Positions 989 through 60,712 of a stretch of DNA of 64,000 nucleotides are shown here, piece by piece. The stretch's first letter is position 1. Each line of letters begins with the position of its first letter. The notes below the pieces were generated by a model that was given only the letters and a program-made list of their open reading frames with translations, did not search any database and was not told the DNA's origin. Origin of the DNA: Bugula neritina (lineage: Eukaryota > Bryozoa > Gymnolaemata > Cheilostomatida > Bugulidae); the NCBI GenBank assembly GCA_964035545.1, contig OZ037766.1, positions 30,241,274-30,305,273 on the forward strand, written 5' to 3'. The position numbers and the translations under genes were made by a program.

Positions 989-1784
989 ATGAGAATTTGG
1001 ATGTTGATAGCATTTGTAATGAGTGTAGCAGTTGTATTTGTCTCTTCACAAAACCAAGCAGACTTTTCCTCTGCAGTATCTCTGTGTAAGTAGCTTAACT
1101 ATTTATAATCATATGCTACTTTGGTAAAATTTGTTATTAGATCGCCGTAAAGTGATAGTCAAGCGATTGGTCAAACTTCTAACTTTTTTTTAAGCAAAAG
1201 AAATTAGAAAACAAAATTATCTGAATGTTTTAATTGAAGCTATTTGCTTTGATTTTTCTAGCATTAGCAAATTTTTTTGCTGTTTTGTATTTATTGGCTT
1301 CTTAAAAAAAATATATTCAAAATTATGATTACTAATAAAAATAATATAGTAAACTAAATTTTGATATCTATGATGGAACTGCATTTAGAGGCCAAAAGTT
1401 AATTATATACTTCACATCATTTCTATGACCAAAGTTCGATTTTTCTTTTCAGCATGCCAAGCCTGTCCACGCACTCGTACTCAAGCATGTCTTCAGCGCT
1501 TAGGAGGAGGTAGGGGAGGTAGAGGAGGTAGAGGTGGGAGGAGAGGAAATAGAAGCGGGGGCAGAAGAGGTAAAAGAAGAGAGGGCAGATCTGGAAGGAG
1601 AAGTAGCCAAAGACAACAAAGGAAAGATGGAAGAAGAGCTTATAGAGGAAGAGGTCTTGTGAACAAAGCTCAAATCTGCAATGCAGAAGCAGGAATACTC
1701 TCTAGAATTAAGTCTTCAACAACATTTTCTAAAAATATGTGGGTTAGTAGAGTTATAAATAATACTTCTTACTTAATGTTTTGA
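989..1784 (+). CDS. Secreted Gly/Arg-rich cysteine protein, C-terminally altered family member
   Basis: Two coding exons, 989-1085 and 1453-1784, joined by a 367-bp phase-1 GT-AG intron give about 142 residues. Exon 1 encodes a hydrophobic signal peptide (starts MRIWMLIAF), probably cut after VSS so that the mature protein starts with Gln. Exon 2 opens with Cys34, Cys37 and Cys45 (C-X2-C-X7-C), then about 62 residues dominated by Gly, Arg, Lys and Ser, then Cys108. Seven residues later, where relatives have Cys5, there is Ser. Cys6 and the Thr/Pro tail are missing, and the last ~30 codons read through sequence that matches the non-coding stretch at 6.36 kb. I infer that an internal deletion fused the coding region to downstream DNA. 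The product would be secreted and strongly basic with only four cysteines. It may be a decaying gene. The family is not one I recognise. Confidence 0.7.
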
Positions 1785-2100
1785 TTTATTACAGATTAAA
1801 ATGTATAATCTTTATGGTATAAAAATCTCATGAAAGGTATTATTTCATTCTTACAAAAATTAATGTATCTTTGCTAATAATTAAGCTGTCATTTTTATAG
1901 ATATAGAAATTTAATCAAGGTAGCTAAAAATATATCAAAGAGTGGCTTTGGGATACTATGAGGGTTGAAGCTCTGACAATATGAGTTACTGCGGACAACT
2001 TTTCTATTCTAATTGTTGCTGTATACATTTGAAAACGGAAAAATTTTACAAAAATAAAAACAGGGCAATAACATGCCGTGTACTAATTGAGACAACAAAG
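1700..2100 (+). repeat. Duplicated 3' segment (partner at 6353-6730)
   Basis: The stretch from AGTCTTC through a TTGATTTATTACAGATTAAAA block, and the following ~350 bases, aligns with 6353-6730 with substitutions and small indels. In the first gene it overlaps the end of the coding region; at the second locus it lies 1.5 kb beyond the stop. This places both in one ancestral duplicated unit. An AATAAA at 2053-2058 may be a polyadenylation signal. Confidence 0.65.
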
Positions 2101-2461
2101 TAATTTATGTTTTAGAAATCTACTTTATATATAACTTGTATATACTAAGAGGGTTTTTATTAATTAAAGATTATATGATAAACTATATCAACAAAAAATC
2201 TATCTATCATTTCTCCTTGGAGGTAAAACTTTATTTTTTTCAGATCAAATGAAACAATTAATAATAGTTATCATGCCCTTTTGTAGATCATTTTTACTAC
2301 AATTCCTATATCAATACAGAACTACATATATAAGTACTTCAATTTTTAGATCTGGGTTACTTTAGAATTCAGAAGATAAGACCTTGTCCATTTAAAACAA
2401 AAACATAATTAAGATGACTGACAGTTTTTCGCTGACATAGTAAATCAAAAAAACCTAAAAA

Positions 2462-3110
2462 ATTGCCAATTCACCAATGGATGATGCCGGTGAAACCTTG
2501 AAGTCCACTACATATAGACCATGCTATAAATCTCATGATGGGAACCAATTGGTTGGTACTTGTGGATGCATATACCAAATATCCTTGCATTCATCCCACA
2601 AGTTCTATGTCAACCAAGGCAAAAACAGACTCACTGGGGATAAACTTCACTCATTTTGGATGCCCGCAATACCATAGTCACTGACATTAGACCAAGCTTT
2701 ACATCTGAGGAGTTTAAACATTGTGCAAAGACAGAGGAAATAGATACACCTGAGAAGAGCATATTATTACTATCCTGCTACCAATGGAGCAGCAGAATGA
2801 CTATAGTAGAATCTTTCAAGCAACCACTAACGAACTTTGCACCATTATCTAGAGAAGCCCTGAAGGAATTCTAGATGCAATACAGGAAAAGACCCTATTG
2901 TCTAATGAATTCTCACCGAGCTAAACACATTGTGAACGTCAGATCCGAACGAAACTAGATGCATTACTAACATCACCAGCCCATCTTGATTAAAGAAAAC
3001 AAATGCAAGAAAAAAGGAGGATTAGGAAACTACACAGCTACTGCACTGTAAGCACACATTGCTACGCTCTATAGTGTCTATAATAAAATTCCGAGGAAAA
3101 GGTTAGTTGC
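2462..3110 (+). mobile_element. Degenerate gypsy-type (Ty3-like) LTR retrotransposon integrase remnant
   Basis: Conceptual translation in shifting frames shows pieces of a retroviral-type integrase core: an aspartate-containing stretch followed by FTSEEFKHC near 2690-2725, and a motif around 2800-2820 like the region carrying the third catalytic residue. Stops and frameshifts break it throughout, so it cannot be functional. It sits between the first and second secreted-protein genes. No LTRs were seen. Confidence 0.6.
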
Positions 3111-3429
3111 ATGTGATTGATCTTATGATTTTCTTAAAAAGCTTTTTGGAATAATGAGAAGTATGCTTGTGAGCCGGAAATGTTTAGATAGAAAGCAGCC
3201 ACATTCCATATCTGAACAAGTTTGATTAATTGCTGAAGAAGGAATAGCTATGCTTATCAAAGTTGTACTAAGCTGCAACATCTAATCAGTACTAGTCTAT
3301 TGACCCCATCATTCCCTTGGAATCAATAAATCATACTCACCTGACATATAGCCACAGTTTAAACTTAACGTAATCTTATTCAACCAATTGAAATTGAAAT
3401 TAAAGACCATGAGTGTAAAAAATTTATTG

Positions 3430-3437
3430 CATAAAAA
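3430..3437 (+). promoter_or_regulatory. Degenerate TATA-like element of the 3631-4822 locus
   Basis: CATAAAAA occupies the position of the TATA box in the aligned promoters of the 1 kb and 19 kb genes. The first T of TATA is C here. A probable non-coding exon ends before GTGTGTAAG near 3505, and an acceptor lies just upstream of the ATG at 3631. Confidence 0.45.
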
Positions 3438-3630
3438 CAGTAATAACCAAAGAAACTACATTAGTTTACTGAGAGACGCAAAGCTTTAAAGTCAAAATTT
3501 TTAGGTGTGTAAGTTTTTTTCCTAACGACCATTCTTTTTGTAATTTTTATTTATTCATGGATTTACTAAACTCAAAATTTAAATCCATGGGCTTATACTA
3601 TAATAAATATTTATAGAAACAAAACTCAAG

Positions 3631-4822
3631 ATGAGAGTTTGGATTCTGATAGCATTGATACTGAGCGCAGCAGTAGTGTTGATCTCTTCACAAAACGAAG
3701 CAGGTTTTCCCTCTGGAGTCTCTCTTCGTAAGTTCTTAAGATACACTCCTTCAGACAGAGGTAGTTATATATAGCTCCAAAAACTGGCACAGTAATGTAA
3801 TTGTTATGTTTGTGAACTTTGCTCCTAGATTGCAGTAAAAAAGTTTTTACAATTGGTAAAATATTTAGCTCAATAGACAAATCAAGTTAAAATTAAATTA
3901 TCGTAGTAACTTTACTGATCAGTTATTTATTTTTAATTTTTGCATGACCTCAATTTTTTTTATTTTTTTTTATTTATTAGTTTATTAGTAGAAAACTAGT
4001 TGAAATTACAGCTATTGATAAAATAAATCACTGAATTTTAATACTTATCAGGAAATTATATTTGCATCTTCTCAGAGTATGTATTGAAAAACTACTTTCT
4101 ATTTCAAAAGTTATTCACAAGTCTTAATTTCTATGACATGCGTTTCATTTATTATTTTAGCTTGCCAGGCCTGTTTACGTACTCGTACTCAAGCATGTTT
4201 TCAGCGTTAAGGAGGTGGTAGGGGTGGTAGAGGTCGTAGGGGTGACAGAGGTGTCAGGAGAGGAAATAGAAGAGGGGGCAGGAAAGGTAGAAGAGGGGGT
4301 AGAAAAGGAGAAAGAAGAGGTAGAAGAGGGAGCAGAAGTGATAGAAGAAGAAGTAGCAGGAAAGAAGGAAGGAGAAGTAGAAAAGAGGAAAGGAGAAGTC
4401 TAAAGATCCAAGCTCAGTTCTGCAATGTAGAAGCAGCAACACTTTGTACTAGTCTTTGTCAGCCACCAATTCAAGCACCCACCTTAGCACCAATCACTTC
4501 AGCACCAATCACTTCAGCACCAAACACACCACCACCAATTATGCTACCTTTAATTACACCACCACCAATTACACCAGCTCCTATTACACCAGCACCAATT
4601 GCAGCTGCACCAACCACTGCTGTAATAACCAAACCAACGTTAACCACTGCTGCACCAACTGCAGCTGCTCTAATCCCTTCAGCGTTGTTCATACCAGCAG
4701 TAGTTGTACTACCACCAACCACAACTGTACCAACAACCACAACTGTACGAACAACCACAACTGTACCAACAACCACAACTGTACTAACAACTACGGTAAA
4801 CCCAATGTACCAAGGTAAATGA
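3631..4822 (+). pseudogene. Secreted basic/mucin-like six-cysteine protein with a premature stop
   Basis: Exon 1 (3631-3727) encodes a signal peptide starting MRVWILIAL. Exon 2 (4161-4822) follows a 433-bp phase-1 intron. Exon 2 carries Cys1-3 (C-X2-C-X7-C) and is then interrupted by TAA at 4208-4210, where paralogues have TTA for Leu. After that codon the same frame stays open for 203 codons to TGA at 4820-4822. It contains the Arg/Gly/Lys-rich linker, the C-X7-C-X3-C half and a long Thr/Pro/Ala tail with PTTTTV-type repeats. The normal product would stop at 48 residues with three cysteines. Persistence of the long open frame suggests the nonsense change is recent, is a segregating allele, or is a sequencing error. 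Splicing of exon 1 to another exon 2 is discussed under findings. Confidence 0.75.
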
Positions 4823-5640
4823 AGATAACCTCTGAGTAGAAATTACTTTTTTTTTATAACGTGTATAAAACTAGAACAAAACGTATTGTGGTTATAGAAA
4901 AAATATTTAATACAAATTCCTGTATGTTAATCTTCCATATACACTTTTGTTCAGTAGTTTATATTTAATTTTCTACATGCTCTGTTTAAAATATAACAAT
5001 AATTATAATAAATATGCATATGTGGGTACTTTCATGTGTGCAGTGTGTCCAAGCATTTAAATCTGTTTTTTAAATAAATTCATTTTTTACCCGCAATTAT
5101 AGTCTGTTCAAACTACTAATGAGTAATTTGTCCATGTGTTCACATTGCATCAGTTTTGACTGACCAAGCTTATAGCTGCTTTAAAGGATTATTATTTTAA
5201 CTGATTATAGTTAGTTAAAAATTTAATCTATTCACCAATAAGAGTTCAATAGAGCATATAATCAGTCTGTCTTTACAGTGAGAAATATAAGTTTAGTAGC
5301 CAAATGATCACTATAGCATCATTCACTATTACAACTCAGTCAAACTTAATAGCTTAGTCATATATAATCAAATGTATCATGATTTTTCTAAATCTCAAAA
5401 CATTTAGTTGAACATAATATCATCAGGCTCTTTTACAGAGTTTAGTCAGAAATAATAACATATATTATAGTTCTGTAAAAGTGTATTGTTAAATAATGAT
5501 GGTTTTAGCTTGTGGAACAAATGTAAGAGCTCAGCTAATCATTCTCAGATAACCACCAATAATATATGATATCATCGCCAAACTGAATTTTAAGTGCTAT
5601 AAGCAGTGCTAAAACTACACAGCTGTAGTACAGCATTTTA
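4823..5640. other. Non-coding 3' region
   Basis: AT-rich sequence after the second locus with no supported gene. Confidence 0.5.
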
Positions 5641-5643
5641 TAA

Positions 5644-5831
5644 AATTAGGCTGTCATAAAGCTATTTATTAAATTAGAGATTCATACTTGTTGATGGTAT
5701 CATCTATTTTATTTAGGACGTGTAAAATATGCATCTATAGATGCATATTTTACACGTCTTAAATAAAATAGATAATACCATCAACAAGTATGAATCTCTA
5801 ATTTAATAAATAGCTTTATGACAGCCTAATT
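5644..5831. repeat. 188-bp near-perfect palindrome
   Basis: The two halves are reverse complements about the centre between 5737 and 5738 (GCATCTATAGATGC), with very few mismatches, and would fold into a hairpin with almost no loop. There is no coding capacity. It could be a foldback MITE or a replication-derived inverted duplication. Confidence 0.85.
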
Positions 5832-7970: not shown

Positions 7971-7973
7971 ATG

Positions 7974-8202
7974 TCACTAATTTTTTAGATTGCAATCCTA
8001 TATTGACTTGTACCTGTGATTATTCAAATGTCACCTGTGAAGTTGTTGTATATTCATACCAGTTGTAACATTTTAAGCTTGACCACAGGTTTTTTAACAT
8101 AGTTAACCATAATCTTTGTAAAGAAAACTCTACAGGTAACATTTGAATAATCACAAATACAAGTCAAATCTAGGATTTCAATCTAAAAACTCAGTAATTC
8201 GT
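7974..8202. repeat. Foldback element with ~60-bp inverted termini
   Basis: 7976-8038 and 8132-8200 are inverted copies (ACTAA...TTTTTAGATTG...AATCC and the reverse) with moderate divergence, separated by ~95 bp. It resembles a short non-autonomous foldback/MITE. No target duplication was established. Confidence 0.6.
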
Positions 8203-8236
8203 ATACTTTATTATGTAGCTATGGTTACTCAAAAAA

Positions 8237-8310
8237 TGCGCGCACACACACACACACACATAACACACACATAACACACACATAACACACACAGACACAA
8301 CACAGACATA
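8237..8310. repeat. AC-rich microsatellite
   Basis: (CA)n followed by imperfect CATAACACACA units. Reading frames through it are artefacts. Confidence 0.85.
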
Positions 8311-15788: not shown

Positions 15789-16466
15789 TAGAGTAGAGTA
15801 GAATAGAGAAGAGAAGGGTAGAGTAGAGTAGAGCAGGGCAGGGCAGGGCAGGGCAGGGCAGGGCAGGGCAGGGCAGGGCAGGGCAGGGCAGGGCAGGGCA
15901 GGGCAGGGCAGGGCAGGGCAGGGCAGGGCAGGGCAGGGCAGGGCAGGGCAGGGCAGGGCAGGGCAGGGCAGGGCAGGGCAGGGCAGGGCAGGGCAGGGCA
16001 GGGCAGGGCAGGGCAGGGCAGGGCAGGGCAGGGCACGGCAGGGCACGGCAGGGCAGGGCAGGGCAGGGCAGGGCAGGGCACGGCAGGGCAGAGCAGGGAA
16101 GGGCAGGGCAGGGCAGGGCAGGGCAGGGCAGGGCAGGGAGGGGCAGGGCGGGGCAGGGCGGGGCAGGGCGGGGCAGGGCGGGGCAGGGCGGGGCAGGGCG
16201 GGGCAGGGCGGGGCAGGGCGGGGCAGGGCGGGGCAGGGCGGGGCAGGGCGGGGCAGGGCGGGGCAGGGCAGGGCAGGGCAGGGCAGGGCAGAGCAGAGCA
16301 GAGCAGAGCAGAGCAGAGCAGAGTAGAGTGGAGTAGAGCAGAGTAGAGTAGAGTGGGGTAGAGTAGGGTAAGGTAGAGTAGAGTGGGGTAGGGTAGACTA
16401 GGGTAGGGTAGAGTAGGGTAGGGTAAAATAGGGAAGAGTAGAATAGGGTACGGTAGAGTAGGGTAG
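15789..16466. repeat. Pentanucleotide array, G-rich on + (GAGTA to GGGCA to GGGCG/GGGCA to GAGCA/GGGTA)
   Basis: Roughly 135 pentamers. An edge of GAGTA/GAGAA gives way to a long uniform GGGCA block (about 15835-16135), a decamer GGGCAGGGCG block (16140-16265), then GAGCA, GAGTA and GGGTA. The left border TTCATATAGAGTAGAGTAGA is the inverse of the right border of the array at 37246-37734. Long coding frames here are artefacts. Confidence 0.95.
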
Positions 16467-18625: not shown

Positions 18626-19749
18626 TTATTTTGTAAAGGGTGTTGTTGTAGTGGGTGTTGTTGTTGTAGTGGGTGTTGTTGTTGTAGTGGGTGTTGTTGT
18701 TGTAGTGGGTGTTGTTGTTGTAGTGGGTGTTGTTGTTGTAGTGGGTGTTGTTGTTGTAGTTGGTGTTGTTGTTGTAGTGGGTGTTGTTGTTGTAGTGGGT
18801 GTTGTTGTTGTAGTGGTTGTTGTTGTAGTGGGTGCTGGTGCGAAGATGATTGCGCCAGGGAATCGTGCGGCGATGGCTTGTGTAGTAGTAGTTGGCGCAG
18901 CAGTGGTTGGTGCAGCAGTAATTGGTGGTGGTGTAATTGGTGCTGGTCTAATAGGTGCTTGTGTAATAAGTAGTATCATAATTGGTGCTGGTGTAATTGG
19001 CGCTGCACGAATTGGAGCTGGTGTGATTGGTGGTTGTGTAGGTGCTGGGGCTGGTGGCTGACAAAAGCTAGTACAGAGTTGCTGGGCTTCTATATTGCAA
19101 ATTCGAGCTGATCTGTTTCTAAGATTTCTTTCTCCATTTCTTCTGCCACCCCTTCCTCTTCCCTTCCTCCCACTTCTCTTTCCATCTTTACCCCCTTTTC
19201 TTTTACTTCTCTTGCCCCCTTTTCTTTTACTTCTCTTGCCCCCTTTTTTATTGCCTCTCTTGCTCTTGCCCGCTCTTCTATTGCCTCTCCTGTCTCCTCT
19301 TTTATTTTTTCTCTTTTTCCCTTTACCACCCCTGCCTCCTCTACCTACTCCTAAGCGCTGAAGGCATGCTTGAGTACGAGAACGTAAACAAGCTTGGCAT
19401 GCTGAAATAACAAATCAAAATTTAGTTTGCTATATTTTTATCAACAGTATACAAAATAGCAGACATATTTCCTAATGCTAGAAAAGTCAAAACAATTAGC
19501 TTCAATTAAGACATTCAGATAATTCTTTTTTCCAATTTCTTTTGTCTGAAAAAGTTTAAAAATTTGCCCAATCACTTGACTATCACTTTACTGCAATCTA
19601 ATAACAAAATTTACAAAAATAACATATAATCATAAAGAATTAAATTACTTACACAGAGATACTGCAGAGGAAAAATCTGCTTGGTTTTGTGAAGAGACAA
19701 ACACCACTGCTACACTCAATACAAATACTATCAAGATCCAAGTTCTCAT
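18626..19749 (-). CDS. Secreted basic/mucin-like six-cysteine protein, complete
   Basis: Two exons, 19749-19653 and 19401-18626, with a 251-bp phase-1 GT-AG intron give about 290 residues. Exon 1 encodes a signal peptide (MRTWILIVFV...) cut probably before QNQADF. Cys34, Cys37 and Cys45 form C-X2-C-X7-C. An 88-residue linker is almost entirely Gly, Lys, Arg, Asn and Ser and contains repeated KRSKRKGG units. Cys134, Cys142 and Cys146 form C-X7-C-X3-C. The tail begins QPPAPAP, has I-T-P-A-P-type repeats, and ends in about ten Pro-(Thr)5 repeats encoded by an 18-bp tandem repeat at 18645-18832. The tail is expected to be O-glycosylated; the linker is strongly cationic and has many dibasic sites. 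An AATAAA overlaps the stop codon, with a second at 18456-18461. This is the best-preserved long member. Function is unknown; a secreted cationic mucin-like matrix or defence protein is inference. Confidence 0.85.
18645..18832 (-). repeat. Coding 18-bp minisatellite (Pro-Thr5 repeats)
   Basis: GTGGGTGTTGTTGTTGTA on + is repeated about ten times with single-base variants and one shorter unit at the inner end. All repeats keep the frame, so copy number would change the length of the Thr-rich tail without breaking the protein. Confidence 0.9.
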
Positions 19750-37245: not shown

Positions 37246-37734
37246 CTGGCCCTGCCGTGCCCTGCCCTGCCCTGCCCTGCCCTGCCCTGCCCTGCCCTGC
37301 CCTGCCCTGCCCTGCCGTGCCCTGCCCTGCCCTGCCCTGCCCTGCCCTGCCCTGCCCTGCCCTGCCCTGCCCTGCCCTGCCCTGCCCTGCCCTGCCCTGC
37401 CCTGCCCTGCCCTGCCCTGCCCTGCCCTGCCCTGCCCTGCCCTGCCCTGCCCTGCCCTGCCCTGCCCTGCCCTGCCCTGCCCTGCCCTGCCCTGCCCTGC
37501 CCTACTCTACTCTACCCTACCCTACCCTACTTTACTCTACTCTACTCTACTCTACTCTACCCTACTCTACTCTACCCTACTCTACCCTACTCTACTCTAC
37601 CCTACTCTACTCTACTCTACTCTTCTCTACCCTACTCTACCCTACTCTACTCTACTCTACTCTACTCTACTCTACTCTACCCTACCCTTCTCTTCTCTAC
37701 CCTTCTCTTCTCTATTCTACTTTATTCTATATGA
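37246..37734. repeat. CCCTG then CTCTA/CCCTA pentanucleotide array
   Basis: About 50 uniform CCCTG pentamers (37250-37500), then ~46 CTCTA/CCCTA/CTTCT units. It ends in TCTATATGAAGTG, the inverse of the left border of the array at 15789. It is oppositely oriented to the array 550 bp further on. Confidence 0.95.
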
Positions 37735-38289: not shown

Positions 38290-38640
38290 CGAGTGGAGTG
38301 GAGTGGAGTGGAGTGGAGTGGAGTGGAGTGGAGTGGAGTGGAGTGGAGTGGAGTGGAGTGGAGTGGAGTGGAGTGGAGTGGAGTGGAGTGGAGTGGAGTG
38401 GAGTGGAGTGGAGTGGAGTGGAGTGGAGTGGAGTGGAGTGGAGTGGAGTGGAGTGGAGTGGAGTGGAGTGGAGTGGAGTGGAGTGGAGTGGAGTGGAGTG
38501 GAGTGGAGTGGAGTGGAGTGGAGTGGAGTGGAGTGGAGTGGAGTGGAGTGGAGTGGAGTGGAGTGGGGTGGGGTGGGGTGGGGTGGAGTGGAGTGGAGTG
38601 GAGTGGAGTAGAGTAGAGTGGAGTAGAGTAGAGTAGAGTA
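38290..38640. repeat. GAGTG pentanucleotide array
   Basis: About 55 nearly identical GAGTG pentamers, a short GGGTG patch at 38565-38585, and a GAGTA edge. Frames encoding WSGVE repeats, and their complement, are artefacts. Confidence 0.95.
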
Positions 38641-39020
38641 GCTAGCTGTAGAGTAGAGCAGAGTAGGGTAGGGTAAGGTAGAGCAGAGTAGAGTAGAGTA
38701 GAGTAGAGTAGAGTGGGGTAGGGTAGAGTAGGGTAGGGTAGAGTAGGGTAGGGTAGAGAGGAGTAGAGTAGGGAAGAGTAGAGTAGAGTAGAGTGGGGTA
38801 GGGTAGAGTAGGGTAGGGTAGGGTAGGGTAAGGTAGGGTAGGGTAGAGTAGGGTAGGGTTGGGTAGGGTAGGGTAGGGTTGGGTAGGGTAGGGTAGGGTT
38901 GGGTAGGGTAGGGTAGGGTTGGGTAGGGTAGGGTAGGGTAGGGTAGGGTAGGGTGGGGTAGGGTAGGGTAGGGTGGAATAGGGAAGAGTAGGGTAGGGTA
39001 GAGTAGAGTGGGGTAGAGTG
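38641..39020. repeat. GAGTA/GGGTA pentanucleotide array with 20-bp higher-order period
   Basis: Follows a TAGCTAGC junction. At 38840-38935, GGGTAGGGTAGGGTAGGGTT repeats about four times as a higher-order unit; elsewhere GAGTA and GGGTA alternate. Confidence 0.9.
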
Positions 39021-40113: not shown

Positions 40114-40752
40114 GAAATAGTAAAGGGGGTGTATCAGGAATAGGAGAAGTAGCAGAAGGCAACATAGGGGAGATAGCATAAGAGCTAGAAGAAGAGGTCT
40201 TGGGACCACAACTCAAATCTGCAATATATGAGCAGGAAAACTTTGTGCTATCTTTTGTCAGCCACCAACCTCAGCACCAAAACCATTTTCAATCACCCCA
40301 GCATCAATCACTGCAGCACCCTTCACATCACCGCCATTTATGCTACCTTTCATTACAATAGCACCCATTACACTAGCAACAATTACATCAGCTCCCGCTT
40401 ACACCAGCCCCTACAGCACCAGCTCTAGTTACGGCTGCACCAAAAACTGCTGCAACAGCAACTGCTGAACCAACTCTAGCACCGACTTCCACAGCAGCCC
40501 TAACACCAAACCCTCACACCATTTCCTCCACCAACTCCCCCCACCAACTCCCCTAACCTCCTCTCCCTATATAATAACCCCTGCACCAACCCCTGCACCA
40601 ACCCCTGCACCAACCCCTGCACCAACCCCTGCACCAACCCCTGCACCAACCTCTGTACCAGCCCCTGCACCAACCCCTACATCAACTTAGCACCAACTTC
40701 TGCACTAACTCAGCACGAACTCAACACCTGGTTCAAAAGAAAAAAGAAAATA
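40114..40752 (+). pseudogene. Decayed copy of the basic/mucin-like six-cysteine protein exon 2
   Basis: Aligns with 9900-10390. It starts within the basic linker, so Cys1-3 and the signal peptide are missing. The C-X7-C-X3-C half is recognisable but TGA at 40229-40231 lies in frame between Cys4 and Cys5. Near 40395 the Thr/Pro tail shifts frame, and later it becomes a 12-bp CCTGCACCAACC repeat (about 40580-40670). The 3' flank continues to match the 9.8 kb locus to about 41345, with the AATAAA changed to AATAAG. It is clearly non-functional. Confidence 0.85.
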
Positions 40753-41345
40753 AATAAAAAATGCATTTGAAAGCGTGGCATCTGTGCGGTGGGCTGTATT
40801 AAATTTCTTCGATCAGTTGGTTGTTTTCATATTATGCAAATTAACATGTTATTTTATAAAACTATAATTATTTAGAAAGTTTTAATGTCAATACTAAATT
40901 TGCAGTTTTAGCTATGAAATAAGTTTTATTCGTCAATTGAAATCATTAGCTAAATTATGTAACTTTTTTACTACGCGCTTTAGAGGAATGCGCACGAGTA
41001 TAACGTCATCATTTGTTATAAACATTTCTAACTTAAATGGTCATTTCAAAAATTAAAAAATTTCACCAAAAAATTATACTCTAATATAGTACCCAGCTAC
41101 AATTAATTTCTACTCTAATATAGTGTCCAGCCACCATTAGTTTACACTCTAATATAGTGTTCATCCACATTTATTCTGCATGCATTTGTTACTCAGTCCC
41201 AAAGCTTTTAGAAGTAAGTTCTATATTCTTAAATTGCTGCTATATTTTGTTTGGAGCTGCAAGAAGATGGATTATAATGAGTTTGTGTCATAGTATGACT
41301 GTATTGATAGAGCACTATAAATAGCAGCTAACAACCAAGTTAAAC

Positions 41346-42650: not shown

Positions 42651-43028
42651 CATGCAATTTATATATATATATATATATATATATGTATTGGTATGCCACC
42701 CAGAAGTATTGGCAGGCAGCCAATCATTAAAGCTTTCAAGCTTCAAAAGCTTTCACCAAAGCTACTATTAGCTGGCAGAGCTAGTGCATTCACTGTACTG
42801 CATGAGTCAGTGTATCATGATCAAACCGCCATATTTACACTCTTTGTATGAATAAACTATCGGTTTCGGTATTGTGATGGCTAGGATTTTTATCCACGCA
42901 TCAATATTGGTACGATTTGACAGTTAATAAACTCGAAAACCTGTTGCCAAGTTGGCTAGTAGTTAAAGCATATCTTGCAACCAGACACAAACACAAACCG
43001 ATACAGTACCAATATTGTTGAGGCTGAC

Positions 43029-43640
43029 ATGGACCGACAGGACATAGTTAATCTCAAGAAGCAACGTACTACTCTGAGATCTAAGGTAACAATGCTAACT
43101 AATCTCATAGAATCAGCAATCTCTAGTAGCAACTCTACACAAGTGGAATGCCTGCGATCTCAGCTTGAATCTACATATCAAGAGTTTCTAACTATCCATT
43201 ATGACTTTTTGGAATACGTTTCATCAGATGAGTCTATAGAAGACATTGCTTATGTTAATAAGATGAGTCCAGTAGAGTACTATCAAGCTGTAAAGGCTAG
43301 TTATGACAAAGCCATTTCTGACAGTAATACTTGGCATAGCAAATTCCATAAAATCAAGCACAGCCTTATTTTAGCAATTAAGAAAGCCAATGGATTAGTT
43401 GCTGATTGTACTGACAATACTCTTATCACTGAACATCATAGGAAATGTGTAGCTCTTTCAGAAAGTTTGGCAGATACCATAGGTTTTTCTGATTTATTAT
43501 TAGAACTAGACAAAGTTATTTTATCTTTAGATTATTGTATGTCTAAGTTTACTCTTATGTCAAGGGCTCAGTCACAGAGCATGAATTTCCAACACCGTGA
43601 ATCTGATCCGTCCATGGTCCGGTCCGGTCCGGTCTCGCGG
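43029..43640 (+). CDS. BEL/Pao gag-like N-terminal region
   Basis: The frame is open from TTG 42975, with the first ATG at 43029, and encodes a helical, probably coiled-coil protein (MDRQDIVNLKKQRTTLRSKV...). It stays open to 43856, but the part after about 43640 is unlike the rest. The +2 frame (43649-44272) carries the natural continuation, so a frameshift in the GC-rich G-run near 43645 is inferred. It probably corresponds to the start of the capsid polyprotein. Broken as it stands. Confidence 0.6.
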
Positions 43641-43648
43641 AGAGCGGT

Positions 43649-44272
43649 GTGGGTGGGGGGTCACCTTCAGACGGCGCGAGTCATGCACCGACTATGGTCG
43701 CGTCGAGTCGGTTGTTTTCTTCTAGATCACACCCTAGCACACATGAGGCTACTCTTGCACCAAATCCAGGTGTCACAGCAAGCGGTAGTGTTAGGCAGGT
43801 ACTATGGGAAGATCACACATCCGGTGAAGCTTTGGCATCAAATCCAGGTGTCATAGCAAGTACCAATGTCAGAGATGTTCTTTCTTCTACGTTCTCAGTA
43901 CGTGATCTACAAGGTAGTACTGATCGTGCAGCTCATTCTGAATATTTGATTCGCGGCGCAACTTCCTCGGTTGTCAATGCATATGATAGCTACCCTAATG
44001 GAACTAGTCGAATAAGTTATGACTCTAGACATACAGGTGGAAATAACTTCAATTCATCTATACATAAAACTCATTCACAACCCAAGCCATTTAACGGCAC
44101 TAGATACCATTGGCCGGAATTTAGGTCAGTGTGGCTAAGGTATGTCACTATGTTTTACGATGATGTCGATAGGGCTTGTGAATTAAAAAAAATTTCTCAC
44201 AGGCGAAGCTCTGGAGATGGTTCAGCCAATCTTCGCAACTCAGCCTCAAGCTTACGAGAGAATGATGTGTAG
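43649..44272 (+). CDS. BEL/Pao gag-like middle region
   Basis: Ser/Pro/Thr-rich, with two copies of a ~65-base coding repeat (ASNPGVIAS-like, 43755-43880). It is followed by the gag core segment FNGTRYHWPEFRSVWLRY near 44090-44140. The natural frame leaves this ORF at an A8 run (44186-44193) and continues in the next one. A single-base slip there accounts for the break. Confidence 0.6.
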   Translation: MGGGSPSDGASHAPTMVASSRLFSSRSHPSTHEATLAPNPGVTASGSVRQVLWEDHTSGEALASNPGVIASTNVRDVLSSTFSVRDLQGSTDRAAHSEYLIRGATSSVVNAYDSYPNGTSRISYDSRHTGGNNFNSSIHKTHSQPKPFNGTRYHWPEFRSVWLRYVTMFYDDVDRACELKKISHRRSSGDGSANLRNSASSLRENDV

Positions 44273-47200
44273 ATTAGAAGAGGTCTACAATGATCCTAGC
44301 ATGAGTGTGCAAGCAGTCTTCAACAATCTACAAGAACTAAAGCCAGTAAAGGAAGGAGATGCACGAGAACTCGTCAAAATGGCCAACGCAAGTTTGTACA
44401 GCCAACTCGGTGAAGTGGGACTTTTGCAAACTGTTACGCTGCCACAAGTCGATACTCTTGTAAACCTATTACCTACAAGCATTAGACGGGACTGGGATAG
44501 ACACTTTCACATACTTACTCACGAGGAGAGAATCAAGCCATTCCCACACCTCATGAGGTTTCTAGAGCAGGAACGGCAGATAGCCCTCAGACGCATAGAA
44601 ACCGTAAACCCGCAGTCCTTTAGTATGCATAAACAGAAGGTGAAAGCGTTCCACACTGAAAGCAGTGGCCCCAAGTCTAGTAGTAACAGGTCTACTAATA
44701 ATAGCAAAATTATTGATAGTGAGCATCATTGTCTTGTTGAGTGCAGAAATTTCTTGGCGTTGTCTGTAGATGAAAGATACAAGTTAATAAAAACTAATTC
44801 TCTATGTGTTAGGTGCTTGGGTGCCCATGAGCCTAAGTGCTGTCCAAATTTCCAAACCCCTTGTTCAGTCTGTGATAAAACAACTCACCATGTATTATTG
44901 TGCATCAAATCAGCTGAAACTAATACACATACCAATTGTAATACCAACAAGAATAAAGTAAAAGCTGATCAAATTAAGCACAAGAGTAATGAGAATTCTG
45001 AAGTGTCTGCTGTTAGCACCACGGTCCGTGTGTCTCCCAATCATGGAGCGCACAATCATCCAGGAAATGCTACAGTATTTGCCATTCAGCAGGCCCAAGT
45101 AGTAGGTACATCCCATACAGCCATTTTATTCTTTGACAGCGGATCCAATGCTTCATTTATATTGGAGAGAGCTGCTAAAGCGTGGGGTGCGCGACAGATA
45201 GATAAGGTGAATTTGGAAATGAACACACTTGGTGAACATGAAGTTAGCGAAACTTCTACTATTTATGAAGTAAAGTTACAAACTCCAAAGAGAAGGACCT
45301 TTGGGATTTTAGCTTACAGCCTTCGGAAACTCACAGGGGCTATCAACAGGCCACTTGATGCAAACATCCTCGGATTTCTCTTCCCGAAAGTAGATATTCA
45401 CAAGCTATTGAAGAAGATGGGACCCATCGACCTGCTAATTGGTAACAATCTTCTTGGATTGCATCCAAAACACCAAGTTGATCAAGCAGGACCTCACCTC
45501 TATGTATATTCTGGACCCTTTGGACTGTGTGTGCAGGGATCACACCCGGTCCTTAGCAACTTTTCTACACTTCCATCTTTATCTTTCCACGTACAGGCTA
45601 CCATGATGCATAAGAAGTTAGAGGAAGTCGAATTTGCTCCAAGCATTCACAACGACACACTCAACAGTTGTGATTTGGACTTGTCTACAGTTTCTACGCC
45701 GGCCTGCAGTGTCAATAGTCCCGACGCATCTCCCAGTCAGTTTCCAAAGTCATTTTCAAGATCTCAGCATATTATAGATTGTGGTGAATCACATACTATT
45801 GCCACTGAATGTTGTATGATTGAGTCAGCCAATGACTCGGATCCGTCACAGAGCCCGGGAGACCCAGTCACTGAGTCTGCAGAACAAATCGGTTCTAGAC
45901 AGTTGAACAGATCTTTGGAAGTCAATGACTCTACGTCCATGTCTATAGAGATTAAAAGAAAGTATGAATTTACTAGCAGTACCTCTATCACACAATCCAT
46001 GCCTGTTCCGACCAATGAGAGGGCAGAATCTAAAGTGACTGCTAAAGGGGTAAACAAAGCTACAGCTAAATGTCGTATAGCACCCATAAAACAACAACTC
46101 AAGATTCCTCAACTAAAACTCAATGCGGTCGTATGGTCAAAGAGAGGCAGACAATTTATTAAGACTGAAATGCGCTATGAGTTTGAGAAAGTTTATCAGC
46201 TTATCGATTCTAAAACGGTGCTCAAGATGCTCCAAAAGAAGTCAACAAGTTTTCATGTTTACGACGGTGTATGCGTTGGAGAAATTCAGGGAGCAACCAA
46301 TGGGGATATGAGCTGCTGGCACTGGGTAAGTGACAAGGAAAACACAGCAGATTGGCTTACAAGAGGGAAACCTGTCAATGACATTGGACCTGCGAGTGAA
46401 TGGTGGAGAGGCCCAAATTTTCTCTATCTGTCTGAGGATCAATGGGATATAAAATCGCCATCTGACTCGAATGAGCTTGTCTTTGGAAAGAAGAAAATAG
46501 TTTACACCGTCACTGCATCAACAGAAGTACAATCATTTATTAAATATGAAAGTTTCAGCAGCCTCAAAAGTCTAACATGGACAATAGCTGGAGTTCGCAA
46601 CATCTTCAAATACAAAAGTTTGAAGGGAATCCAACCTGATCTCGTCACCGTGACAGACCCACGGCAGACTAAACTCTACTTACTGAAGCAGGTACAACGC
46701 ACTATAGATTCTGAGTTGAACAAGATTAAAGGGAAATATACAAGACTTCACCCCAATAAGACAGAGAGTGGAGTATGGACAGTAGGCAGTAGACTCCTAA
46801 GGCATAACCCCATGACAGCGATTAAAACGCACATGCAATCAACCCTTCCCACCACTCACTACTTTACCTACTTGGCAATGCGGCAGGCACATACAGACAG
46901 CTATCACCGGGGCCGAGATGCAACACTCGCAAGATTCCGAGAAGAGTTTTGGACTATGCAGGGATCTAAGGTTGCTAGGGGCATAGTAACATCATGCCAA
47001 ACGTGTCGACTCAAACAACCTCGCTTTACTGATCAACTGATGGGAAGTCTACCTACAGAACGACTAACGACCGGACCGCCGTTCAACAATGTAATGATAG
47101 ATCTTTTTGGTCCGTATATTGTGAGAGGAGAAAAACAGACTAGAACTTCGAGCAAAGCTTATGGAGTAATATTCACAGACATCAGTTCACGAGCAGCACA

Positions 47201-48026
47201 CATCGAAGAAGTTTTCGGATATGACAGTGATTCTTTCCTGTTGGCATTAACTCGATTCGTCAACATTCGTGGCTGGCCATCCAAGATTTATTCTGATCCT
47301 GGAACACAGTTAGCTGGAGCAGAAAAAGAACTCAAAGATATGTGGAGACGCATGGACAAAGGTTCTATCAAGAAAACCAGTGCAGAAAATGGGTTGCAAT
47401 GGGAATTTGGACCTGGTGACAGCCCCTGGTATCAGGGCGCTGCTGAATCACTCATAAAGGCTGTCAAGAGATGTTTCACATTTTCAATGAGCAACCGCCG
47501 GCTTTGGCCTACAGAATTTCTCACAATCTGCACTGAAGCTGCAAACACACTAAATGAAAGGCCATTGGGATTACTGCCAGATTCAGACTCCGAGATCAAC
47601 ATATTAACACCTAACTGTCAACTTATTGGACGACCCTTCATCAAGAATCCTGGCAATTGGAATACAGACTACTCCTTAAAGGGGCGACTGGCTCTGGTAA
47701 ATACAGTCTCAGATGACTTCTGGCGGAAGTGGACCGAGTTGTATGCGCCCACACTGATTCATCACCAAAAGTGGCATACCCCAAGACGGAACTTTCAGGT
47801 GGGAGATGTTGTAGTTGTTATGGATCCAAATCAGCTGCGTAATCAGTATAAACTAGCTCGAGTACATCAAGTATATCCGAGCAAGGATGGCGTAGTAAGG
47901 AAAGTAGCCCTTTCCTACAAAAACTATAAGGTAGCAGAAAAACTGAGGGACTATGTTGGCTGTAAGGACACTATCATAACCCGCAGCGTGCATAGGTTGG
48001 CTTTATTAACTGAAGTGAACCCATAA
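44217..48026 (+). CDS. BEL/Pao polyprotein with protease and integrase but no reverse transcriptase
   Basis: A 1269-codon frame. Residues ~1-160 are the rest of the gag core. Cys/His knuckles at ~180-225 include CVRCLGAHEPKCC. The aspartic protease active site is DSGS at residues 307-310. About 450-640 is a Ser/Thr-rich, low-conservation stretch where the reverse transcriptase should be; no catalytic YxDD-type motif exists. At ~645-720 lies only the end of an RNase H/tether region (LIDSKTVLKML, then WVSDKENTADWLTRG). The integrase zinc module is at ~900-945; the core aspartates are 962 and 1027 and the glutamate is 1077, with a C-terminal domain after 1180. A frame this long surviving without reverse transcriptase is unusual: an in-frame deletion derivative, a non-autonomous element or a co-opted gene are all possible. 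Confidence 0.8.
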   Translation: MVQPIFATQPQAYERMMCRLEEVYNDPSMSVQAVFNNLQELKPVKEGDARELVKMANASLYSQLGEVGLLQTVTLPQVDTLVNLLPTSIRRDWDRHFHILTHEERIKPFPHLMRFLEQERQIALRRIETVNPQSFSMHKQKVKAFHTESSGPKSSSNRSTNNSKIIDSEHHCLVECRNFLALSVDERYKLIKTNSLCVRCLGAHEPKCCPNFQTPCSVCDKTTHHVLLCIKSAETNTHTNCNTNKNKVKADQIKHKSNENSEVSAVSTTVRVSPNHGAHNHPGNATVFAIQQAQVVGTSHTAILFFDSGSNASFILERAAKAWGARQIDKVNLEMNTLGEHEVSETSTIYEVKLQTPKRRTFGILAYSLRKLTGAINRPLDANILGFLFPKVDIHKLLKKMGPIDLLIGNNLLGLHPKHQVDQAGPHLYVYSGPFGLCVQGSHPVLSNFSTLPSLSFHVQATMMHKKLEEVEFAPSIHNDTLNSCDLDLSTVSTPACSVNSPDASPSQFPKSFSRSQHIIDCGESHTIATECCMIESANDSDPSQSPGDPVTESAEQIGSRQLNRSLEVNDSTSMSIEIKRKYEFTSSTSITQSMPVPTNERAESKVTAKGVNKATAKCRIAPIKQQLKIPQLKLNAVVWSKRGRQFIKTEMRYEFEKVYQLIDSKTVLKMLQKKSTSFHVYDGVCVGEIQGATNGDMSCWHWVSDKENTADWLTRGKPVNDIGPASEWWRGPNFLYLSEDQWDIKSPSDSNELVFGKKKIVYTVTASTEVQSFIKYESFSSLKSLTWTIAGVRNIFKYKSLKGIQPDLVTVTDPRQTKLYLLKQVQRTIDSELNKIKGKYTRLHPNKTESGVWTVGSRLLRHNPMTAIKTHMQSTLPTTHYFTYLAMRQAHTDSYHRGRDATLARFREEFWTMQGSKVARGIVTSCQTCRLKQPRFTDQLMGSLPTERLTTGPPFNNVMIDLFGPYIVRGEKQTRTSSKAYGVIFTDISSRAAHIEEVFGYDSDSFLLALTRFVNIRGWPSKIYSDPGTQLAGAEKELKDMWRRMDKGSIKKTSAENGLQWEFGPGDSPWYQGAAESLIKAVKRCFTFSMSNRRLWPTEFLTICTEAANTLNERPLGLLPDSDSEINILTPNCQLIGRPFIKNPGNWNTDYSLKGRLALVNTVSDDFWRKWTELYAPTLIHHQKWHTPRRNFQVGDVVVVMDPNQLRNQYKLARVHQVYPSKDGVVRKVALSYKNYKVAEKLRDYVGCKDTIITRSVHRLALLTEVNP

Positions 48027-52933: not shown

Positions 52934-52957
52934 GAAGTAAAATGAGATTTGATTAAT

Positions 52958-53549: not shown

Positions 53550-53640
53550 ATTAATCAAATCTCATTTTACTTCTTCTAATGTTTATGCTCTAGATTTATT
53601 TCTATAGAGCACTCTAGTAACGTTTTATAAACACTCATTT

Positions 53641-53674
<34 letters not shown>

Positions 53675-53679
53675 CACTT

Positions 53680-56500: not shown

Positions 56501-56507
56501 TTCTCTC

Positions 56508-56514
56508 TATAAAA
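56508..56514 (+). promoter_or_regulatory. TATA box of the 56786-57893 gene
   Basis: TATAAAA about 280 bases upstream of the ATG. A non-coding first exon (roughly 56540-56579) ending before GTAATA is likely. The acceptor TATATAG just before AAAACTGCAAAAATG corresponds to the one in the 60 kb gene. Confidence 0.55.
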
Positions 56515-56785
56515 GTTTTCATTTTCTTGCTTTAATTTGGAAGTGCTTTTACTTTTATTTAAGTTGAATTGAGCAGGGTAATAATAAAACTTGGTGTTAA
56601 TTATGTCAGTGAATAGTTAGCAAAGTTTCTTAAAATAGGATTTTGACAAGAGAAAGTTTTTTAACTTGGCTTATGTGTATCTAAATTGAACGACACCAAA
56701 ATGTTGCAAGCAGTTTGTGTACGTGTGTGTCTGTTGTTTATATGTGTAGTTCTTTAAACTATCTTGTATATAGAAAACTGCAAAA

Positions 56786-57893
56786 ATGAGAACTCTGGTA
56801 TTGATATTCTTGTTGGTATGTGTGATGATAGCGGCCGCCTCTCAAGCTCATTTTAGACAAAGAGGGGGAAACTTTGTTAACCGTCGGCAAGGAGTTCTAA
56901 GTAAGTATAAATTGCTAATTTGTTGTATATACAAAGATAATTACTATAATCAAATAAAATGATGAAAAATATAATTTGTTGACGGATAAGATGCACTTAT
57001 TGTAAGTTTGAAGCAGCAAAATTATTCTGTCATTTAAATCCTGTTTAGTTCTTCAAAACCTTAATTGTATATTACTCTAAGAAAATTTTTTGAAATATTT
57101 GAAAATAAAAACTTGGATAAAATGGGATATGTTTTTAAATAAAATTAAATTATTTTCAATTGTTTATTTATGATACCAAAAAAAGCAATAAAATTATTTT
57201 TTATATCATATATATATAGAGCAGTGGAAAGTTTCACATATCAGTTTTAAAACTTACCATTGAATTAAAAATAATTTGGCAATTTTAGTTTAATTTATTT
57301 ATTATTTCATAAGCAATGAAATATGCAAATATCTTCAATTAATAAACATTTTAACTTTTATGACCAATTTTCTATAGTTCTGTTACCTGTATATACCTGT
57401 TTGTATCTATACTCTTCTTAGCTGATATTAAAAAGTGGGCTAAGGGTAGAAAGCCTTTAGAAAACATTACTAAAAGTCGGGTATAAAGTGAGAGTGTACA
57501 AATTGTCACTTGATTAATTTTGAATTTTTGTTAATTTTCAAAGAAAATTTAAATTATATCTTAATATTTATAAATATTTTCATGTTTATTTATGTGCATT
57601 ACTGCCATGAATTAAAGAAATGTTTTAGATTATGTTATTTTGCACAATACACGTGTGAATAGTAATAAGTTAATACATGCTATATATGAATGATTTGAAT
57701 GTGAACCATGCTTTCATACATTACAGGCAGAAGATGCAATAGCTGTTTCAGAAGAGCTGAGGCTTTTTGTCACAGACAGCATTTGAGTCACCAGAAATGC
57801 CGAATTGAGACGAATATTCGATGTGGACATATTTGCAACAGGAGGGGCCATAGACTTGCTTTTTCACAAAAAGCTTTAAATCACAAAAAGTAA
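56786..57893 (+). CDS. Small secreted six-cysteine cationic peptide
   Basis: Exons 56786-56900 and 57727-57893, with an 826-bp phase-1 intron, encode 93 residues. Residues 1-21 are a typical signal peptide (MRTLVLIFLLVCVMIAAAS...). A basic segment HFRQRGG...NRRQGVLSRR follows; it could be a propeptide, as it ends in a dibasic site. The cysteine domain has Cys42, 45, 53, 63, 71 and 75, spaced C-X2-C-X7-C-X9-C-X7-C-X3-C, rich in Arg and His. A short basic tail ends ALNHKK. No acidic cluster is present, so the mature peptide is strongly cationic. Spacing around Cys1-3 and Cys4-6 is identical to the long mucin-like members at 1-19 kb, and the intron phase and ATGAGAACT start are shared. Size, charge and disulfide number suggest an antimicrobial-type peptide, but no known family was recognised. 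Confidence 0.8.
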
Positions 57894-57899
57894 ATTAAA

Positions 57900-59820
57900 C
57901 AGCTACAAATTGTCTTTTATTGAGTGTTTGCGTTTATTTTTGCTTTATTGCATCCTTGTAACAATTTGTTTTTTCTTTTGTTTAAATATTTGTAAAAGAA
58001 CAAGATTGATAAACATATTGTTTCAAGTTTACACTGTTTACATTGACTAAAATAGTTTTAAACCACACTTTAATTATATTTTGATGTTTTGGAAGAACAA
58101 ATATTTTGTCGTTTAAAATTAAATAAATAATATTTGCAATAATACATACCATACTATAGATTTGTCATCACATTGAAGATAATATCTTGAGCATAAACTT
58201 TATAAGACACAAATTGCTTGGTCTGAGTCTCTTATAATTTGATTCAACAAACTTTCAACTGTACTGTGAGATGCTTTAGTCATTACAATAAACGTTCTCA
58301 TAAAACTTTTAACTTTTAAATTGTGAAAATTAAACTTTTATTCATTCTACTATAAAAAAAACAACATTTTCTTCTTCTATAATGTAAGTCGTAAATTCAG
58401 CAGAAAATTATTCTCTTAACTGCTTTCCTTATTAAATAACTAAACATTTATTCGGCAAGATGCAAGTGCTCAAACCTAATGTTTTATTCAGTTTTATTTT
58501 TTTATATACAAAATGAGCTAAAATAGCAAAAACCTTTCCTTGAATAATCAACATAATTTTGCTATATACACTTTTTATTCCCTGCCTAATTTATTTCCTG
58601 ACACATATATACATCATTTCAATTTAAGAACACCTATAACACTCGTGTCTATTTGCATGTCTGCCAAATCTATATTATACCTGCATGAACAAATATTGTT
58701 TATTTTAGGACTTTTATATATATAATACTATTTAAAAACCAAACACTTAATCTCATGTGAAATATAAGAAACAAAGTGCTAAAGGTGTTCATTATAGAAT
58801 ACATAATAGACTTATGCAGGTGCTAGAGGCCTTGCTAATTTTGCTAACTGATTTTGCCTGTGTCTAAATAGCTTTTAAATAGTATAATATATATATATTG
58901 TAATGATTTGTATAAGCAATCAATTGTAAGTGGCAAAAACTTTCCCTATTTTTTCATTCATGTTAACCTTGCCATGTTTATAGAATTAAATATAGCATTT
59001 CTATAAATCAACTGCATGCCACCAGCAATGCTGTCTTTTTTAACTAGGAAAACCTTTGCAAGAAAACCAGCTTAACATACAGTCTTTTTTATAAATATTT
59101 TATCTGCTGTTATATATGTTTTTTAACAAAATTTTAGTATTTTCTCAGTTTCATGCTTTAAATTAGCATTTATGTATTATATTATAGTTGCTATATTGCC
59201 ATAGCCTCAGATTAAAGTTGGTGGCACTAAAACTACAGTCTATAATGTATAGATTCCAAGCTATCATTTTCCTTCTACCTGCAATACACAACATTTAATA
59301 TAATTTTGCTTTAGGTGTAATCAATTTGTTATAATTCTATTGGAAAATTTTAGCAGCTTATTGTACTTTAGGTGTTGTGATTGCATATCAATATAATTTC
59401 TCAAAATCTTTCAAGTTAAAGTTCTGTGCAACTCTTTTAATGCAAAAGTCAATTTGATTTCGGTTAATTAACTTTTTTGTTTGATTTTTCAGTTTCTTAT
59501 ATGCATTCAAATATACTATTAAATTTTTTATAAATGTGATAAAACTTTTGCTGTCAAAATTTATGGATCATTTTATTAACATTAAAAAACAAGCAATTTG
59601 CATTTAGTTCATGCAATAAAATAACATTTGAATGCAATTTCAATTTGTTATGAGTTGTTTTGCTCATAAACAATAAAAAATTAAAACAATGTTACTTAAC
59701 TTATATACTAATTTGAAATATGTTACCAAATAGACAATTAACTGGTTTAAACAAAAAAGAATAAACAAACACAACAATTCAACAGCTGGAAATAAAAGCA
59801 GACATGATCTAAAGTTCAAG
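57900..59820. other. Non-coding AT-rich region between convergent genes
   Basis: No gene. It separates the two convergent six-cysteine genes. Confidence 0.45.
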
Positions 59821-59827
59821 TATTCTT

Positions 59828-60712
59828 TTATTTTCCAACTGCAATAGGTCTAGGGAAAATAGGTTGGCCAGGTCTAGGGAAGATAGGTTGGCCAGGTCGT
59901 CCAACAATAGGCCTGATAGGCCTGAATGGCCTAATAGGTCTGAATGGCCTGATTGGTCTAGGTCGGTTACAAATTCTTCTGCATCTACCAAAGAATGTGG
60001 TTCCGCATCTTCTGCTTTGATTTCTTCTTCCACTGCAGCGACGATCTTCCTGTCTGAAGCAAGCACCGCATCTTCTACCTAAAAATTAGAAACAATAATG
60101 TTCAGATTATCTCTAGAATAAGGTGTGATTATGAAATTTGCTTTAAAAAGTTCTCTAAGGTCTAAGGTGTTATTTTAATAAAAAATGGAGTTTAATTTTA
60201 TATAATAAATACACTTTATTTAACGTATGTTTTTTATCTTTAGTGTCTAAAACTTATTGATTGATTACAAAAATATTAGATTTAGCAACAAATAGTGTTA
60301 GAAACATTAAAATCATGCTTGTTTGATTTTTAAAATATTTTGAAATAATAAGTCTTGAAAGGAACAATAAAATTGGCACCGTGTGTTTAGTAATATATCT
60401 TCAGTTACGTGTTTTTAATTTTTAGGCTGTTGATTTCAATCAGTACTTCCATAGTGTCCTACATGGACCTCAAGTAATCTAATATTAAAATCCCACTGTA
60501 TGAAATAATTGAGAGAGCTATCAATTTACTGATTGCCATCTTATCATACAATGCAATATTGTTTTATTGTGTCATGTTGCTAGTTGTTCTAATTTAAATA
60601 AGGCATATAGTGCAATACACTTACTGCGAATTGCTCCTCGACGATCAAATTGAGCAGAAACCATCACCATCATCACACAGATCAACAAGGATACCAAAAT
60701 CAGAGTTCTCAT
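59828..60712 (-). CDS. Secreted six-cysteine peptide with Pro/Arg-rich repeat tail
   Basis: Exons 60712-60625 and 60078-59828, with a 546-bp phase-1 intron, encode 112 residues. The signal peptide is about residues 1-20 (MRTLILVSLLICVMMVMVSA) and the mature protein would start QFDRRG. Cys33, 36, 44, 54, 62 and 66 give C-X2-C-X7-C-X9-C-X7-C-X3-C, the same as the 57 kb gene. The 46-residue tail is built of PIRPFR units followed by two RPGQPIFP units. It is rich in Pro and Arg with no acidic residue, resembling proline-arginine-rich antimicrobial peptides, some of which (crustacean arasins) also pair such a region with a cysteine module. It is divergent from and convergently oriented to the 57 kb gene. 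An AATAAA overlaps the stop codon. Antimicrobial function is inference. Confidence 0.85.

Follow-up and report, generated by a model that had tools for sequence, protein, structure and literature searches.

Among described peptides, turgencins A and B of the ascidian Synoicum turgens come closest to the proteins considered here: in the accessible part of their report they are antibacterial, linked C1-C6/C2-C5/C3-C4 and inclined toward a helix-loop-helix arrangement (PMC7024374). The same text describes the viscotoxin/crambin thionins as helix-loop-helix proteins of identical connectivity, with the viscotoxins being cationic, and gives two adjacent cysteines as typical of thionins (PMC7024374). 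The bryozoan Bugula neritina has itself been studied for chemical defence by bryostatins from a bacterial symbiont (PMC11480708, as consulted in part). Here we analyse 64,000 nucleotides of B. neritina DNA (chr2 30,241,274-30,305,273, hereafter the window; chr2 comprises 33,575,671 bases), which carry genes for predicted secreted, strongly basic proteins on one six-cysteine framework, together with their relatives in the surrounding chromosome. Judging from sequence, we consider that these genes on balance probably make up a bryozoan family, lineage-restricted and expanded by tandem duplication, whose secreted cationic products are of the antimicrobial type and serve host defence.

A six-cysteine framework in short- and long-loop genes

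The common architecture consists of a signal exon, a phase-1 intron and an exon 2 encoding C-X2-C-X7-C-Xn-C-X7-C-X3-C, and all three elements are present in eight of the ten modelled loci. Five of the ten lie inside the window and eight of the models are complete. A predicted signal peptide and the phase-1 intron, positioned 0-2 residues before C1, are found in 10/10, including the five in the window, and signal exons starting ATGAGA, as preliminarily described, begin at 989, 3631 and 56786 on the plus strand and at 19749 and 60712 on the minus strand. All four fixed spacings are identical in the 11 complete domains examined, and the small and long groups are distinguished by Xn, 9-10 residues in the former and 65-88 in all seven complete long domains of the latter. 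In a 284 kb region around the window, which also served for the shuffles and the self-comparison below, the exact motif occurs three times with a 7-12-residue loop and seven times with a 40-120-residue loop, as opposed to no short-loop and no long-loop motifs in 60 dinucleotide-based shuffles; because array copies are not independent, these counts show that the framework is non-random, and no more. The frame shared by both groups, as originally proposed, is thus borne out. The eight complete models have isoelectric points of 11.7-12.0 and net charges of +16 to +43, in line with the expected strong basicity; secretion is a prediction and the disulfide bonds are inferred.

The two small-loop genes of the window are organized as follows:

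56786..56900, plus strand: signal exon of small gene A (57 kb), 115 nucleotides, starting ATGAGA and ending in phase 1
57727..57893, plus strand: exon 2 of small gene A, six-cysteine domain with Xn = 9
60625..60712, minus strand: signal exon of small gene B (60 kb), 88 nucleotides, starting ATGAGA and ending in phase 1
59828..60078, minus strand: exon 2 of small gene B, six-cysteine domain with Xn = 9, then an Arg/Pro-rich tail and a terminal Gly-Lys

Both domains read C-X2-C-X7-C-X9-C-X7-C-X3-C, and in both genes the phase-1 intron (826 nucleotides in A, 546 in B) stands directly ahead of an S-R-R that precedes C1. The predicted proteins, of 93 residues with a net charge of about +16 and of 112 residues with about +23, respectively, agree with the lengths and loop size first reported. 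The terminal Gly-Lys of the 60 kb protein would permit C-terminal amidation, one of the marks of turgencins; the long form encoded at 30.169 Mb likewise ends in Gly-Lys, an ending not seen in the other modelled proteins inspected.

The long-loop loci of the window are more heterogeneous:

19653..19749, minus strand: signal exon of the 19 kb long gene, 97 nucleotides, starting ATGAGA and ending in phase 1
18626..19401, minus strand: exon 2 of the 19 kb long gene, encoding a half-domain, an 88-residue Lys/Arg/Gly-rich loop, the second half-domain and a Thr/Pro-rich tail
989..1784, plus strand: 1.4 kb long copy, signal exon 989-1085 (ATGAGA) and exon 2 from 1453, with the family frame lost after C4 and without C5 and C6
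3631..4822, plus strand: 4.1 kb long copy, signal exon 3631-3727 (ATGAGA) and exon 2 from 4161, with a stop codon shortly past C3
9768..10382, plus strand: 9.7 kb long copy, exon 2 open with six cysteines and Xn = 65
40122..40805, plus strand: decayed remnant of a long-gene exon 2

The picture of a set of long genes at 1-19 kb holds for one of the four loci there, the intact 19 kb gene, whereas the 1.4 and 4.1 kb copies are broken and the 9.7 kb copy has no signal exon that could be found, its homology to the intact copy at 30.117 Mb breaking about 190 nucleotides upstream of C1. The 19 kb gene encodes a predicted protein of 290 residues with a net charge of about +43 and with 42 Lys/Arg within its loop. 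Four further intact long copies lie outside the window, at 30.117, 30.125, 30.169 and 30.182 Mb, the 30.169 Mb copy being the counterpart of the broken 4.1 kb copy with an exon 2 that is 96.7% identical. A further copy, at 30.175 Mb, retains all six cysteines in an open exon 2, with no signal exon detected. Together with the 9.7 kb copy, a frameshifted small-loop gene beyond the window and the decayed copies, it falls outside the ten modelled loci.

Predicted fold and a possible role in host defence

The cysteines lie at positions 0, 3 and 11 of the first segment and 0, 8 and 12 of the second, a nearly mirror-symmetric arrangement that suits two antiparallel helices. Indeed, when the six inter-helix pairings were fitted to ideal helices, the ladder C1-C6/C2-C5/C3-C4 gave a root-mean-square deviation of 0.80 Å and the next best pairing 2.58 Å; as a control, the procedure was applied to the turgencin A spacing, and the published pairing came out on top. 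AlphaFold2 places helices at residues 2-17 and 21-33 of the 57 kb domain, with block values of the predicted local distance difference test (pLDDT) of 82-86 over residues 1-30 and low values in the tail, and at residues 2-31 and 49-90 of the 9.7 kb long form, with 79-86 in the blocks of the cysteine halves and 52-54 over residues 21-50. Both models thus carry the half-domains on two helices with Xn between them; against the PDB, Foldseek with the 57 kb model found no chain. We therefore favour, at the level of modelling, a helix-loop-helix with the ladder C1-C6/C2-C5/C3-C4, in which Xn would be the hairpin loop, 9-10 residues in the small forms and 65-88 Lys/Arg/Gly-rich residues in the long ones; the pairing is deduced and the hairpin predicted. 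The claim that a polycation sits between two half-domains is consistent with the helix geometry and with both models; its insertion into a short ancestor, rather than a loss, would be one possible course.

We propose a mechanism in which a cleaved signal peptide would export each protein and the six cysteines would lock two antiparallel helices through the ladder, making the hairpin the constant, stable part of the molecule. The variable cargo would then comprise the loop, short in the small forms and a long polycation in the others, plus a tail that is short and basic, Arg/Pro-rich, Thr/Arg-rich or Thr/Pro-rich (mucin-like). Through their positive charge the proteins would attach to microbial surfaces and damage them, and the Thr/Pro tails of the long forms would bear O-glycans and retain the polycation in mucus or in a layer at the surface; of these steps secretion is predicted, and glycosylation and antimicrobial action are putative. 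We prefer host defence because the proteins are cationic, secreted and probably disulfide-stabilized, are encoded in a multiplied and decaying array that contains duplicated segments as well as broken copies, and have the predicted topology of the antibacterial turgencins. We also count toward it the fast divergence of the small-gene cores relative to their signal codons: the 57 and 60 kb genes match at 44/57 nucleotides over signal codons 1-19 and at 42/102 over the cysteine core, with a nonsynonymous divergence (dN) of 0.89 in the core and saturated synonymous sites.

Several observations weigh against this interpretation. Of 300 random spacings, 29 fit the ladder equally well, 4/60 fit some pairing equally well, and 369/6561 spacing sets are equally mirror-symmetric, so that the helix-geometry test is suggestive only. 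The AlphaFold2 scores are modest (mean pLDDT 72.7 and 68.2, predicted template modelling score 0.49 and 0.39), from alignments of five sequences for the 57 kb domain and four for the long form. The turgencin helices are themselves populated but unstable in water, as stated in the part of the report available to us (PMC7024374). Synonymous sites in the small-pair core are saturated, as noted, and among nine pairs of long copies, some of them involving copies that are broken or have no signal exon, the ratio of dN to synonymous divergence (dS) is 0.36-0.83 in eight and 1.5 in one (the 30.125 Mb copy against the 19 kb gene, dN 0.031, dS 0.021). As the ratio is below 1 in eight of nine pairs, the long copies show no general sign of positive selection. 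Finally, secreted polycations rich in Thr and Pro would fit equally well in an adhesive, a cuticle or a mineral matrix.

The latter point leads to the alternative that survives best, although we regard it as rather unlikely: the secreted products would be structural or adhesive, their polycations borne on Thr/Pro-rich stalks and cross-linked through the cysteines, and would serve larval attachment, the cuticle or the calcified wall. Bryozoans live fixed in place, have a larva that attaches and build a calcified wall; such a role would suit the five intact long forms, which contain 32-43% Thr+Pro+Ser and loops of 65-88 Lys/Arg/Gly-rich residues. The small forms, on the other hand, have no long stalk, and defence is the better match for the hairpin-like regular spacing, for the Arg/Pro-rich tail encoded by the 60 kb gene and for the core divergence.

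A fuller version of the host-defence proposal, which we put forward tentatively and hold to be somewhat doubtful, is that of an undescribed bryozoan defence family in which a disulfide-laddered hairpin clamps exchangeable cationic cargo. In the long forms the loop would have grown by purine-repeat expansion into a polycation of 65-88 residues, with one disulfide fastening both its ends and a mucin-like stalk bearing it as a surface-anchored antimicrobial loop, and gene content or alleles would differ strongly between B. neritina individuals. If antimicrobial, the family would offer a direct handle on how B. neritina controls microbes; furthermore, with loops ranging from 9 to 88 residues, the hairpin clamp would exemplify in nature a disulfide scaffold tolerating large loop insertions.

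Relationship of the two groups and history of the cluster

Common ancestry of the small and long groups, as originally argued, is likely on the basis of the identical spacings, the intron phase just before C1 and one genomic neighbourhood, the members found occupying a single stretch of about 210 kb in a 216 Mb genome. The residues other than the cysteines, by contrast, do not prove it. Comparing the 57 and 60 kb domains with the long forms, their likeness is within chance (P 0.09-0.60 for the N-terminal and 0.07-0.76 for the C-terminal half), and in 42 small-versus-long half-domain tests with the cysteines masked the lowest P, 0.0074 (the small-loop gene just beyond the window, L040, against a decayed copy at 30.2225 Mb), is unremarkable among 42. 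Similarity inside the small group is also weak under the same masking (P 0.05-0.70). The signal-exon DNA speaks for kinship in the case of the 57 and 60 kb genes, which compared with three long genes yield P values of 0.0030, 0.0085, 0.0110, 0.0145, 0.0270 and 0.0620 against codon shuffles, though the L040 signal exon is no closer to the long genes than codon shuffles (P 0.15-0.34).

That the groups are instead separate families, either with convergent frameworks or through exon shuffling of similar signal exons onto unrelated cysteine domains, seems quite improbable to us. It would account for non-cysteine residues that are no more alike than shuffles and for two small genes whose signal exons are far more alike than their cores, and the intron argument is weakened because genes for secreted proteins commonly have a phase-1 intron behind the signal exon. 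Yet the four fixed spacings agree in 11/11 complete domains, intron phase is identical at a site 0-2 residues ahead of C1, all members found lie within the one stretch, and five of the six signal-exon comparisons of the 57 and 60 kb genes reach P 0.003-0.027, with the sixth at 0.062 and the L040 gene remaining apart.

Close copies of the long genes differ in the length of their loops (67, 75 and 88 residues). Loop DNA is 76-83% purine in three long copies, compared with 43% in the half-domains on either side of the loop of the 19 kb gene; this composition suggests that the long loops have grown by slippage of purine-rich triplets. The reading of the long copies as mostly non-functional debris, coding look-alikes left by purine-rich repeat growth in a decaying array, can draw on the same composition and on the many copies that are broken or in which no signal exon was detected, but it is improbable: five copies keep a frame of 228-290 residues open and have all six cysteines, the splice sites and the signal exon, and dN is below dS in 8/9 pairs, though some pairs include broken copies.

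Contrary to the initial notion of a dispersed family, protein and pattern searches of the whole genome (215,847,546 bases in 295 contigs) place the members that they recovered at chr2 30.117-30.327 Mb, about 210 kb, with one weak 128-nucleotide family fragment near 30.106 Mb. The protein searches score the best first-look candidates only, so that member counts are lower bounds, and distant members elsewhere in the genome are compatible with the results. With a long exon 2 as query, at least 17 genome matches were obtained between 30.117 and 30.282 Mb, several with internal stops; the 57 and 60 kb exons matched only themselves; and a signal-exon pattern allowing up to three mismatches matched exactly the two small genes, with none for a reversed control pattern. 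A match at chr2 30.752 Mb (E 3.0) was rejected as a short-period repeat on reading. Self-comparison of the 284 kb region gave 40 repeat pairs longer than 1.2 kb, of which 27 are 92-99% and 13 are 81-89% identical and some are inverted, with the same long-gene types recurring up to three times. The duplicated segments bearing long genes extend over chr2 30.117-30.291 Mb (segments L026-L038 plus window 1-50 kb).

Two further small-loop genes lie just beyond the window. L040 encodes 131 residues in a signal exon and an exon 2; in the latter, a domain with Xn = 10 is followed by a Thr-rich stretch, an additional C-X3-C and a tail rich in Arg and Gly. L045 (30.327 Mb) is a relative with a one-base frameshift between C1 and C2, which may be an assembly error. 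Both pair a short loop, as in the small genes, with a Thr-rich tail reminiscent of the long ones. An intact form exists in print as EB796_000657 (P0001), a hypothetical protein of B. neritina with Xn = 10, a Thr-rich stretch, an extra C-X3-C and an Arg-rich tail; it shares 57% identity with the L040 protein across 63% of the query and 79% with the L045 piece across 78 residues, and genome searches with the L040 protein, the L045 protein and P0001 return L040 and L045. According to the consulted part of the draft-genome report, the draft gene models were built by AUGUSTUS with transcriptome hints, from specimens genotyped S (PMC7576161). Since the draft models used such hints, P0001 gives indirect support for the splice join. 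Its best match in the present genome is the 83% identical frameshifted copy (L045), hinting at variable gene content or very divergent alleles between the draft-genome specimens and this one.

Other features accompany the cluster. In the window, long open frames at 42963-48026 resemble gag and pol of what we take to be a BEL/Pao-type retrotransposon, and long 5- and 10-base repeat arrays (GCAGGGCAGG, GCCCT, CTACT, GAGTG) occupy 15833-16321, 37249-37729 and 38291-39019. To the right of the L040 gene, two similar membrane-protein exons (L040 9345-9818 and L041 4555-5022, minus strand) resemble those of rolling-stone-like proteins, and several collagen-like Gly-X-Y exons lie to the left of the cluster at chr2 30.0516-30.0901 Mb (L020-L023).

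Comparison with known families

The two groups did not match different known families; indeed, no known family was matched in the protein, Pfam and PDB searches, and the description of the family as novel stands to that extent, but for its already published relative EB796_000657. In the protein collection the 57 kb peptide had no match, a long form had 231 candidates and none at E up to 10, and the L040 member matched only P0001. PDB sequence searches gave no match for the 57 kb exon or profile A5, and the best values, E 0.3 for P0001 and 0.28-0.73 for the 60 kb protein, are taken as chance. None of four proteins scanned against Pfam reached the cut-off, with two sub-threshold matches at E 0.056 and 0.15. 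In the bryozoan peptide literature, surveyed through titles and abstract openings and hence a weak indication, no title concerns a gene-encoded antimicrobial family of Bryozoa.

Adjacent cysteines are typical of beta-defensins, and we set these aside because a CC pair is absent from all 11 complete domains and the four scanned proteins have no Pfam match at cut-off; a genome search with PF00711 also returned no match and is uninformative, as 14 controls were silent too. Plant thionins are rejected on the same grounds of a missing CC pair and Pfam match. Crustacean two-domain antimicrobial peptides (penaeidins, hyastatins, arasins) resemble the 60 kb gene in joining a cysteine-rich to a Pro/Arg-rich domain; their Pro-rich domain comes first and their cysteine pattern is another, whereas the cysteine domain leads in the 60 kb gene, and the penaeidin/hyastatin-type order therefore does not apply. 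The St-CRPs of Synoicum turgens were rejected as a model for their connectivity C1-C6/C2-C4/C3-C5, as given in the excerpt consulted (PMC13208793). EB796_000657 shares the framework with Xn = 10, is annotated without a function and represents the small-loop, Thr/Arg-tailed subgroup only.

The turgencins, as far as the available portion of their description goes, share with the bryozoan family six cysteines of which none are adjacent and cationic character; their pairing C1-C6/C2-C5/C3-C4 is the one predicted on the bryozoan side. They differ in spacing (C-X3-C-X4-C-X7/8-C-X2-C-X3-C versus C-X2-C-X7-C-Xn-C-X7-C-X3-C in 11/11 domains) and in the C3-C4 loop, 8 residues in turgencin A and 7 in turgencin B versus 9-10 in the bryozoan small forms; their motifs CXMAC and KKXGG were not seen by eye in the 11 bryozoan domains. 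They belong to another phylum, and a long loop or mucin-like tail was not seen in that portion of their description. By analogy, the bryozoan family may work like a turgencin, albeit with spacing and motifs that are not those of turgencins. As no Pfam or PDB family fits, the genes look like a hitherto undescribed family of the cationic, cysteine-rich defence-peptide kind.

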